A model generated the notes under the pieces. The model worked only from the letters and a program-made list of their open reading frames with translations, was not told the origin of the DNA and ran no database searches. A program made the translations under genes and the position numbers. Shown piece by piece: positions 30,608-35,321 of a stretch of 64,000 nt of DNA (the stretch's first letter is position 1; each line of letters opens with the position of its first letter). Origin of the DNA: Terriglobia bacterium (GTDB taxonomy: Bacteria > Acidobacteriota > Terriglobia > Terriglobales > SCQP01); contig JAJPKR010000027.1 of the NCBI GenBank assembly GCA_021323595.1, positions 1-64,000 on the forward strand, written 5' to 3'.

Positions 30608-31126
30608 TCAAGCCGTAGCCGCAGCCCGCCGCGCGGCGCGCTGGCGCGCCCAAGCGTAAACGCCGAAGATCGCCGCCGCATAGATCAGGTCACCGGCGGC
30701 CATGCGGTAGGCAAAGGGCAGCCCAGCTACATAGCACTCCGCCAAACCTTGGCCGGTGCGCGGATAAAGCACGCCGGCAGCCCACACGCCAAAATTGCTG
30801 ATCAAGAAGAACGCCGCCGCTCCGAGCACGGTGGTGCCGCCGATGCGGAGCGGCTTGAGGCTATGGCGCAGCAGGAGATAGCCGAGCCCGAGATAGACAA
30901 GCCAGCCGGCCCACTGGAAATACTGGTCAGCGTTCGGGGCGGCGTGCAGCACCAAGCCGTTCAAAAGGAAGTCACTGCCGATGATGGCGGCCATAGGGAT
31001 CCAGAGCCGTTTGGCGCCCATCCAAGCGCCGCAAAACAGCAACATCGCGCCGATGGGAGTGAAGTTGGGAACATGCGGCAGGAAGCGCATTCCCACCGCC
31101 GCCAGCACCAACAAAACGAAAGACAT
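30608..31126 (-). CDS. DUF6580-like membrane protein
   Basis: A 172-aa protein with about five hydrophobic helices. The N-terminal MSFVLLVLAAVGMRFLPHVP NFTPIGA region resembles a family in which a helix precedes NFTPIGAMLLF. The start at 31126 is supported by GGAG nine bases upstream; an ATG at 31147 is an alternative. Sequence looks like the energy-coupling-factor S-component-like DUF6580 group, from memory only. It converges on pdhB and no partner transporter lies nearby. Function is unknown. Confidence 0.65.
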   Translation of the reverse strand: MSFVLLVLAAVGMRFLPHVPNFTPIGAMLLFCGAWMGAKRLWIPMAAIIGSDFLLNGLVLHAAPNADQYFQWAGWLVYLGLGYLLLRHSLKPLRIGGTTVLGAAAFFLISNFGVWAAGVLYPRTGQGLAECYVAGLPFAYRMAAGDLIYAAAIFGVYAWARQRAARRAAATA

Positions 31127-31249
31127 TGGCGTCGTCTCCGATGCCAACAGCGTACCATACCCCGCGCCCTGAGCCGCGCCTAGGGCGAGCGCCGCTGCAC
31201 TGCAAGTGGCGTATTCCGACCGTCGGATGGCAGTCAGAGACCGACGTGG

Positions 31250-31312: not shown

Positions 31313-32236
31313 TTACAGGAGAGGCTGCTGCTGCGAATTCGCCGCCGGTTGACTCGCCGGCTGCGGCGCAGCCCCGGCTAGATCATTGTGCAGGATGCGA
31401 ATCTCCACCCGGCCGCCCCGGGTCAGACGCGCCTCACCCGTGCCGGTGCTGGTGGCGGCCACCGGAGCATTGCCCATGCCCATGGTGTAGATGCGGTAGA
31501 GCGGAATGTTGTGCTGGAGCACAAGGTAGCGGACCACCGTATCGGCTAGCCGCTGGCTATTCTCCATGGCTCGCAAGCCACGGCCGGCGGAGAATGCCTG
31601 CACTTCGACAATGTAGCCCTTCTGGTTCGCGAGACCGGCCAAGAATTGATCCAGCGATTGCTGAGCCGCCGTATTCAGGCGTGCAGTGCCGGGGCGGAAG
31701 TTGAGTTGCGCCGTCTGCGCCACGTGATATTGGTCCACGTTCTCGACGGTGCTCTGGACGGTATTGACCTGCTGATCCAGCTGCTGCGCCTTGGTTGCGG
31801 TCTCCTGTGCCTGTTGTGCGGCGCTGGAGGCTTCTTGATTGGCCTGATCGGCGCGGCTCTGCGCCTGCTGAATGCCGGCTCGGGTTTCCGCATCCACGCG
31901 GCTAAGTTGCTTCGCGTTGTCGGCGGTCAGCTCATCCAGTTCGTTGAGCCGGTCGCGAACCGGCTGGAGTTGCTTGTTGACGTACTTCTTGCGCGCAAAA
32001 GGATTGATGCGGCCCCAAAAACCCTCATGCGTCTGGGGTTTAAGCGGTTGAGCTTCGACTTGGTTGGCCTTGTCGATGGATTCCTGCTCCGCTGCCTGCG
32101 TGGAGTTGGTGGATTGGGCGGCGGCCTGAGCGGTGGTCTGGTCCTGTTGCGGCTGGGTTTGCTGTGCCGCGCAGGGCACCATCAGCGCCGCCGCGAGTCC
32201 GCCGATGGCCAGCCACGATGTTTGAGTGCGCATCAT
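31313..32236 (-). CDS. OmpA-family outer membrane protein with coiled-coil
   Basis: A 307-aa exported protein. The signal peptide ends near CAAQQ (ATG 32236, supported by AGGGA seven bases upstream). A Gln/Ala-rich segment and a long coiled-coil-like stretch (about residues 90-170, repeated QAQSRADQANQEASSAAQQ kind) are followed by an OmpA-like peptidoglycan-binding domain (about 180-290): NFRPGTARLNTAAQQSLDQF, VEVQAFSAGRG, NSQRLADTVVRYLV and GRVEIRIL. Divergent from the GH36-like gene. Expression has its own terminator at 31250-31282. A role in anchoring outer membrane to cell wall is known for the family and inferred here. Confidence 0.88.
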   Translation of the reverse strand: MMRTQTSWLAIGGLAAALMVPCAAQQTQPQQDQTTAQAAAQSTNSTQAAEQESIDKANQVEAQPLKPQTHEGFWGRINPFARKKYVNKQLQPVRDRLNELDELTADNAKQLSRVDAETRAGIQQAQSRADQANQEASSAAQQAQETATKAQQLDQQVNTVQSTVENVDQYHVAQTAQLNFRPGTARLNTAAQQSLDQFLAGLANQKGYIVEVQAFSAGRGLRAMENSQRLADTVVRYLVLQHNIPLYRIYTMGMGNAPVAATSTGTGEARLTRGGRVEIRILHNDLAGAAPQPASQPAANSQQQPLL

Positions 32237-32299: not shown

Positions 32300-32334
32300 G
32301 GAGCCGAAAGGGGGAGCGGATCCTTTTCGGCTCC
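32300..32334. promoter_or_regulatory. Ten-base-pair inverted repeat upstream of the OmpA-family gene
   Basis: GGAGCCGAAA at 32300-32309 and TTTCGGCTCC at 32325-32334 are perfectly complementary, with 15 bases between them. It begins 64 bases upstream of the OmpA-family start codon, so it would be in the 5' leader if transcription starts further upstream, or an operator at DNA level. There is no U-tract. Confidence 0.5.
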
Positions 32335-32477
32335 GGAGCACTCGTTTCGGCCCAATACTGCTAGGCCAAAACGGAGGATTCTGACCTCCACCGCCATCTC
32401 GTACACGCGGAGGGCCAAACTCCCGCGAATGGCATGTCCTTGCCAGTCAGGAACATAGCTACGAGAATCAGCAGCGA

Positions 32478-32551
32478 TTCCGGTCCGGCAGCAAGGAATT
32501 TCTGCGAGGGAGCGCGTAAAAATCCGCGCCCCCGCGCAGGCTGGACCGGAA
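32478..32551. other. Large structured element upstream of the GH36-like gene
   Basis: An inner stem pairs 32502-32516 with 32525-32539: 15 positions, 13 pairs and two mismatches, around the loop TAAAAATC. Outside it TTCCGGTCC (32478-32486) pairs perfectly with GGACCGGAA (32543-32551), with an asymmetric internal loop that contains an AGC/GCT pair. Neither strand has a poly-U after it. The element ends 64 bases before the GH36-like start codon. It might be a folded 5' leader, a small RNA, a recombination or protein-binding site. Confidence 0.6.
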
Positions 32552-32615
32552 CGCTCGCCGGATTCGCGCCGCGCGTTTCGGCGGAAGGGGCTTGCACTTT
32601 ACGGCCGCCTAGGTC

Positions 32616-35321
32616 ATGCTCCCTGCGCGGAAAGTGAACCACCGAACGATCGCGATTGGCGCCGCGCTGCTGATGGGTTGCACGCTGGCGCAAGCTCAGG
32701 CCTACGCCCACGTTGATGGCGCCCAGGTGCGGCTGGGGAACCGCTTCCTCGAACGCACGATTGAGGTGCGCGATGGTATCGTCGGCACCGTCTCGCTGCG
32801 CAACCAACTCACCGGGCACGATTACGCGCTCGCCGGCGCCGAGTTCGCCTTGCGCCTGATTTACGAACGGGTTGGGTATGGCCCGGACAGTGAAAACCCG
32901 TGGGTACTTACGGCGCGGGATTTTCAAGTGGCAGGGCGCGAGATTACCGCCGAGCCCGACGGCGGGCAGCGCGTGACTTACCATTTGGCGCTGCGGCGGG
33001 GCCGCTTGCGGCGGCCGCGTCTGACCGTGGACCTGGTCTATGAGATCCGGCCGGAAGACTTTTTCACGCGGCAGTGGCTCCAGTTGGCGGTGAGCGGCAC
33101 CGGAACCTATTTCATCGATTCCGTGGCGGTGCTGCGCGACCGGCTGGCGGGCGCGCCGGTTTCGCTGGGCGGCTTCGGCCAACCGCTCTTCGCCGGTGAT
33201 TTGTTCCTAGGCCTCGAATACCCGGCGTCGTTCAACACCGAAGACGGCGAGGTTGTCTCGTTGGCTCGAATCGTCGGGGAAAACATCCCGCCCCAGGGCT
33301 TCGTGACCCAGCCCGCGGTGATCGGGGTGGCGCCGGGGGGCGGCGCGGCGTTGCACCGGCAGTTCATGGCCTACGTGGACCGGATTCGGGTGGCGCCGGT
33401 GCGACCCTACCTGCTCTACAACACCTGGTACGACCTGCAGTCCACCCACATGAACGGCGCGAACACGCTGGAGCGGGCGGCGGAATTCAAGAGAATCTTG
33501 ATTGAGCATTATGGTTTGCATCTGGATTCGTTCGTTCTCGACGATTCTTGGGACGATTTCCAGAACCTCTGGCGGATCGATCCGAAGCGCTTCCCGAATG
33601 GCTTCTCGGATCTGACTGCGGCACTGCGCAGCGCCGGCAGCGGGCTGGGCCTGTGGTTTGGCCCGATCGGCGGATACAGCCATCGTCAACTGCGGCTGGC
33701 GGCGGGACGCCGGATCGGCATGGAGATCACCACCAACGGCCAATTCCTCTGCTTGGCAGGCCGCAACTACAGCCGCTATTTCACCGACGCCGTCACCGGC
33801 TACGAAAAGCAATACGGCATCAACTACTTCAAGATCGACGGCACACCCTTCGGCTGCAACGACCCCTCGCATGGCCACCCGGTGGGCATCTACTCGCGCG
33901 AGGCCGACATGCGCGTGCTCATCGGCTTATTGCGCGACTTGCGGCAGGAAAATCCGAAGGTATTTCTCAACATCACCACCAGCATCTGGCTGAGCCCTTG
34001 GTGGCTGCAGTACGCGGACACGGTGTGGATGGGCGGCGAGGACAGCGGCTATTTGCCCGCCGTGCCCACGCTCACCCCGCGGCAGAGCGCGATCAGCTAT
34101 CGCGATTCGGTGCTCTACGACGATTTCGTGCGCCAGCGTTATCAGTTCCCGATGTCGTCAATCATGACCCACGGCATCATCAAAGGCCGCTACAACGAAT
34201 TGGGCGGCACGCAGGAAACGGCGAAGGACTGGGATGATGCCGTCGTGCACTACTTCAGCGTGGGGAACATGATGTACGAACTCTACATCAGCCCCGACGA
34301 ACTCTCGTCAGCGCAGTGGGATGCGCTGGCAGGCGGCATTCGCTGGGCGGAGGCGCACGCGCATCCTTTGCTCGACAATTCGACCTTCGTCTTGGGCGAT
34401 CCGGCGCGCCGCGAACCCTATGGCTTCGTCCACGCCTCGCCCGCCGACACCATCGTGACCTTGCGCAACCCTTTCGTGGTTCCGCGCATGGCGACGTTGG
34501 CGCTTACTGCCGATAACGGGTTCACTGGCGGCGATACACCGCTGGAGGCGGAGGTGGTATATCCCTATCGCGAGCGCTTGCCCGGCACTTGGCGCGCGGG
34601 GGACACACTGAATGTGGATCTGGGCGCGTATGAACAACAAGTGATCGAATTGCGGCCGCTGCGGAGACGGACTCTGTCCATCGAGGGAACACGTTACGAG
34701 GTGAGCGACGCCGGTCCCAACGGGGTAACGCTCGACCTTTACGCCCCGGAGGGAGCGACTCGGCCGGTCCGAATCGTGGGCGGCCAAACGTCCGGGATGA
34801 CGATGGCAGGCGCGCTGACCCTCCATTTCGGCAGCGCCAAGACGCAGACGCCATCTGCGCCGCGCTTTACTGCCCCGCAATTAATGCTCAGGACCGCTCC
34901 GAACGGCGGCCGCGACGCGCGCTTGCGCGTGGCGGCGACCGTGCCTGCCGATTTCGCGGAGGCGCGCCTCGCCGTGCTGCTCCAGCCCCCAGTGGAAACC
35001 AAAGGCGTGACCGCGTCGGCCAGCGACAACGGCCGGGCGGTAACGCCGGCGCTCGAAAACGGCGGGCGCGGACAATGGTATTGGTTCTCCGTGCCGCTGG
35101 TCCCCGGCCAGCATGCCGTCACTCTGGATATGAACTTGCCGGCAACGCTGCCGCGAGGAACGCAGTGTTCGGTTTGGCTGCTGGCCACCCGCTTGCTGGC
35201 CCGGCGCCAACTGCAGGTGCGGTTGGACACGGGGGTCGCCCCTCCGCCCGCGGATACCTTGCCGCAGCGCGCGGCCTCGCAAGCCGAGACTTACAACTTG
35301 CTGCAGCGGACGCTGCCTTAG
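32616..35321 (+). CDS. GH36-like secreted alpha-galactosidase family protein
   Basis: A 901-aa exported glycosidase-like protein. A signal peptide covers about residues 1-28 (possible lipobox around LLMGC). The N-terminal half is a beta-rich domain and the centre (about 265-560) a TIM barrel of clan GH-D: NTWYDLQSTHMNG, LDSFVLDDSWDDF, LGLWFGPIGGY, and YFKIDGTPFGCND, where the Asp of KID (about residue 406) aligns with the GH-D nucleophile. C-terminal 300 residues are beta-sandwich-like. Substrate is unknown (alpha-galactoside, N-acetylgalactosaminide or raffinose-type are all possible). It stands alone, with no sugar transporter next to it. Confidence 0.78.
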   Translation: MLPARKVNHRTIAIGAALLMGCTLAQAQAYAHVDGAQVRLGNRFLERTIEVRDGIVGTVSLRNQLTGHDYALAGAEFALRLIYERVGYGPDSENPWVLTARDFQVAGREITAEPDGGQRVTYHLALRRGRLRRPRLTVDLVYEIRPEDFFTRQWLQLAVSGTGTYFIDSVAVLRDRLAGAPVSLGGFGQPLFAGDLFLGLEYPASFNTEDGEVVSLARIVGENIPPQGFVTQPAVIGVAPGGGAALHRQFMAYVDRIRVAPVRPYLLYNTWYDLQSTHMNGANTLERAAEFKRILIEHYGLHLDSFVLDDSWDDFQNLWRIDPKRFPNGFSDLTAALRSAGSGLGLWFGPIGGYSHRQLRLAAGRRIGMEITTNGQFLCLAGRNYSRYFTDAVTGYEKQYGINYFKIDGTPFGCNDPSHGHPVGIYSREADMRVLIGLLRDLRQENPKVFLNITTSIWLSPWWLQYADTVWMGGEDSGYLPAVPTLTPRQSAISYRDSVLYDDFVRQRYQFPMSSIMTHGIIKGRYNELGGTQETAKDWDDAVVHYFSVGNMMYELYISPDELSSAQWDALAGGIRWAEAHAHPLLDNSTFVLGDPARREPYGFVHASPADTIVTLRNPFVVPRMATLALTADNGFTGGDTPLEAEVVYPYRERLPGTWRAGDTLNVDLGAYEQQVIELRPLRRRTLSIEGTRYEVSDAGPNGVTLDLYAPEGATRPVRIVGGQTSGMTMAGALTLHFGSAKTQTPSAPRFTAPQLMLRTAPNGGRDARLRVAATVPADFAEARLAVLLQPPVETKGVTASASDNGRAVTPALENGGRGQWYWFSVPLVPGQHAVTLDMNLPATLPRGTQCSVWLLATRLLARRQLQVRLDTGVAPPPADTLPQRAASQAETYNLLQRTLP

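Follow-up and report, generated by a model that had tools for sequence, protein, structure and literature searches.

The region between two divergently oriented genes of a Terriglobia bacterium, encoding an OmpA-family protein and a secreted GH36-like glycosidase, carries a quasi-palindrome of about 100 bp (contig JAJPKR010000027.1; the window, i.e. the whole stretch of DNA analysed, is 64,000 nt long). The element is lineage-specific, and the intergenic region in which it lies is rearranged. If transcribed, it could represent a 5'-terminal stem-loop of the GH36 mRNA, which we put forward tentatively as its best reading.

Structure and stability of the hairpin

The sequence at 32478-32551 (+ strand) matches exactly the hairpin described in an earlier note, as do its parts identified in the sequence and by folding: the outer stem (TTCCGGTCC/GGACCGGAA) is 9 bp long, and the inner one (CTGCGaGGGaGCGCG/CGCGCcCCCcCGCAG) comprises 13 pairs and two A.C mismatches and is closed by the loop TAAAAATC. 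The reported distance to the glycosidase gene is equally correct, its ATG being located at 32616, 64 nt downstream of 32551. The description was accurate for this interval but too small. Folding and alignment of the arms extend the stem outward through GCG/CGC and GAATC/GATTC segments, and the natural unit is an imperfect palindrome at 32465-32565 (+ strand) with 36 pairs in total. A one-sided bulge of 12 nt, AGCAAGGAATTT (32490-32501, + strand; sequence and folding), separates the outer stem from the inner one.

The stability of the hairpin is beyond chance, and the structure itself is real. On the + strand, the minimum free energy (MFE) of a 111-nt window is -62.8 kcal/mol vs -40.4 ± 3.4 in 200 dinucleotide shuffles (z = -6.5), none of which reached the stability of the hairpin. 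On the - strand, the corresponding values are -66.8 and -44.6 ± 3.9 (z = -5.8). Equal pairing in shuffled sequence, named in the earlier note as the outcome that would speak against the hairpin, was thus not observed. As a genomic background, we used 456 kb of stretches from the same genome, split into 30,256 overlapping windows (110 nt, step 15). After correction for GC content the hairpin ranks 6th among them, and it is therefore extreme, not unique. The five windows more extreme for their GC content comprise three coding segments, one dispersed repeat-like element, and one orphan hairpin (L088:10381-10490).

A scan for terminator patterns bore out the absence of poly-U 3' of the hairpin on both strands. 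The sole terminator-like match is made up of the inner half-stem and the ATTTTTA of the loop, and an intrinsic terminator was rejected since the G+C-rich stem is not followed by a U-tract.

Genomic context

The glycosidase gene (32616-35321, + strand) codes for a secreted GH36/melibiase-like protein of 901 aa, with a Pfam Melibiase match that is sub-threshold only. The divergent OmpA-family gene is located at 31313-32236 (- strand), followed downstream on the same strand by a DUF6580 gene (30608-31147). Comparison of the ompA loci fetched from 12 genomes of the family shows DUF6580 as the divergent neighbour of ompA in 11 of them, the place taken by GH36 in the window, while in four relatives the GH36 orthologues are found on contigs other than those of ompA. 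Regions of 250 nt upstream of four close GH36 orthologues contain no comparable hairpin; the best z is -3.4 in one of them and weaker than -1.5 in the remaining three. The hairpin is thus dispensable for the GH36 gene family, and the difference in the ompA-GH36 neighbourhood, together with orthologues devoid of the hairpin, places it on a lineage-specific junction.

An ORF of 67 aa extends across the hairpin (32434-32637). It was rejected as a gene because it has no homologue in the loci of relatives, its Pfam matches are sub-threshold only, and its GC3 is low (0.64 vs 0.75-0.83 in the neighbouring genes).

Promoter-like sites and the putative GH36 leader

A sigma-70-like promoter candidate on the + strand, TTGCCA-17-GAGAAT (32440-32468; consensus match only, 9/12), directly precedes the stem. 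No other such site occurs on this strand in 500 bp, where 0.1 is expected in shuffles. The match is nevertheless weak, with the candidate -10 box GAGAAT agreeing with the consensus in 4 of 6 positions, and it may have arisen by chance. Transcription of GH36 from this site would start near 32475, a predicted position, compared with a stem that runs from 32478. About 3 unpaired nt would be left ahead of the stem, in a GH36 leader of about 140 nt.

On the opposite side, the - strand carries the promoter-like motif TTTGGC-N7-GTGTA of ompA (32402-32419). In the form TTTGGC-N7-(G/A)TGTA, it is conserved upstream of ompA in most relatives (L019-L029, L031, and L033), throughout the family as well as in some sister-family genomes. 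In the genome of the window, the strict form occurs only at this position. Judged by its spacing, the motif resembles a -24/-12 (sigma-54-type) promoter, the -12 element being non-canonical. If this is indeed the promoter of ompA, the hairpin, which sits about 45 bp upstream of it, falls outside the ompA mRNA; judging from this position in the sequence, it is probably part of the GH36 side.

Among the functions suggested earlier, a structured leader, a small RNA, or a protein-binding site, the GH36 leader is still the best functional reading, with a promoter-like site directly before the stem and the ompA motif on its other side, while nothing supports a small RNA or a specific binding site. 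In favour of a leader are also the stability far above that of shuffles and the fold of the predicted transcript, in which the hairpin stands as a 5' domain of its own, with the AUG about 80-90% unpaired. Arguing against it are the GH36 orthologues without the hairpin and the AGG upstream of the AUG, which is mostly paired in the same predicted fold.

As part of such a leader, the hairpin would have a passive role, protecting the mRNA against 5'-end-dependent decay by shielding its 5' end, as the 5' stem-loop of E. coli ompA does. Stem-loops at the 5' terminus that stabilise mRNA have reportedly been documented in E. coli (Emory 1992 and Arnold 1998, as cited in PMC3997798). The element shares with the 5' UTRs of E. 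coli ompA and papA a strong predicted hairpin a few nt from the candidate mRNA 5' end and an AUG that is mostly unpaired. It differs from them in being much longer, in belonging to a glycosidase gene, and in that the start is only predicted. A more elaborate version, in which the element is a genus-restricted regulatory RNA leader of the secreted glycosidase, of an undescribed class and with the 12-nt bulge as a recognition site, seems to us very unlikely.

Search for homologues and copies

BLAST searches disclosed no DNA homologue in 60 near relatives, all drawn from outside the genus of the element, or in 399 genomes of the class; the matches found there, 20-39 nt long and GC-rich, were judged to be due to chance. 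A second copy was not found in the source genome, the best other match being 21 nt long (E = 0.02). A covariance model of the element, run against 30 relatives, recovered the element itself on both strands, followed by matches at chance level (E of at least 0.02 per genome). Plasmids, phages, and viral contigs (IMG/VR) yielded no homologue, and among GTDB contigs scanned for the pattern there was a single palindromic match, in Halorussus, judged to be due to chance; the GTDB and IMG/VR scans used the exact inner-stem pattern and would miss a homologue with an altered inner stem. Likewise, no homologous hairpin was found in the regions upstream of ompA or GH36 in relatives. In Rfam, no family scored above the gathering threshold, and a permissive search of the region returned nothing relevant. 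As far as these comparisons of sequences can tell, nothing supports a conserved RNA, a lack of support that does not count as evidence against the structure.

Alternative explanations

Almost as likely as a GH36 5' stem-loop is a functionless, recent, and neutral quasi-palindrome, made or perfected either by template switching during replication or in the course of the rearrangement by which ompA and GH36 became neighbours. It would accord with the occurrence of the element in one genome only among the collections searched, with a junction that is absent from relatives, and with the five other windows in 456 kb that are more extreme for GC. Hairpin stems are known to arise and to be perfected through template switching (PMC8794818), and quasi-palindromes of that origin resemble the element in being imperfect inverted repeats with near-perfect inner blocks and in being lineage-specific; for the element itself, a switch event is hypothetical. 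Less easily accommodated are the 36 interrupted pairs, which imply several events or some age, while an aged neutral palindrome should decay.

The element could also be what remains of a mobile element, either MITE-like or derived from an insertion sequence, after its terminal repeats had come to lie next to each other, an origin that we find unlikely. Its arms align as imperfect terminal repeats of 25 bp (GAATCAGCAGCGATTCCGGTCC vs GAATCCGGCGAGCGTTCCGGTCC), and with about 100 bp, an intergenic position, and repeat-like ends it recalls ERIC-like imperfect palindromes and MITEs (PMC3116915). Unlike them, it is present in one copy, has no relative among the 399 genomes of the class, plasmids, and phages, and is not flanked by a target-site duplication of at least 5 nt. 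Failure in copy number and target duplication weakens the reading as a mobile-element relic.

More doubtful still is a small RNA, or a protein-binding or cruciform operator between divergent promoters of ompA and GH36. The location between divergent genes, close upstream of the ompA promoter-like motif, would suit it, while its length is far above that of a typical operator, neither strand has a terminator after the hairpin, and in relatives the sequence upstream of the ompA motif is not conserved, though the motif itself is, and strongly so. That the element belongs to a widespread, riboswitch-like class of structured RNA, as its large and stable structure 5' of a gene might suggest, is largely refuted by the Rfam and covariance model results. 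An integron attC site was ruled out by eye because GTTRRRY/RYYYAAC boxes are absent at the stem base.

The observation is sound and its interest limited. Should the hairpin be functional, a little-studied lineage of bacteria would supply one further example of an mRNA tuned by a 5' stem-loop. Should the hairpin be neutral, it would indicate that rearrangement or template switching can yield large hairpins of regulatory appearance, and would advise caution in scans that rank hairpins of a single genome on folding energy.

Other hairpins and repeats

Two more hairpins, GGAGCCGAAAAGG/CCTTTCGGCTCC and CGTTTTGGCC/GGCCGAAACG, are located in the ompA leader (32302-32374, - strand). In three relatives of one genus (L020-L022), a perfect 13-bp hairpin of different sequence occupies a similar position in the ompA leader. 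The orphan hairpin in L088 (10371-10500), imperfect and about 100 nt long (GGCGAACAATAG...CTATTGTTCGCC), lies between divergent ORFs, about 70 nt before a plus-strand gene. In addition, a dispersed repeat-like sequence (GCTTCGTTG...GGCCTCCTTTACGTACTTCCGTGTACG...) was observed in L091:16556-16700, with similar sequences in L051:1081-1194 and L016:1228-1343. Common to the source genome and relatives, it is possibly a REP/MITE-like family.
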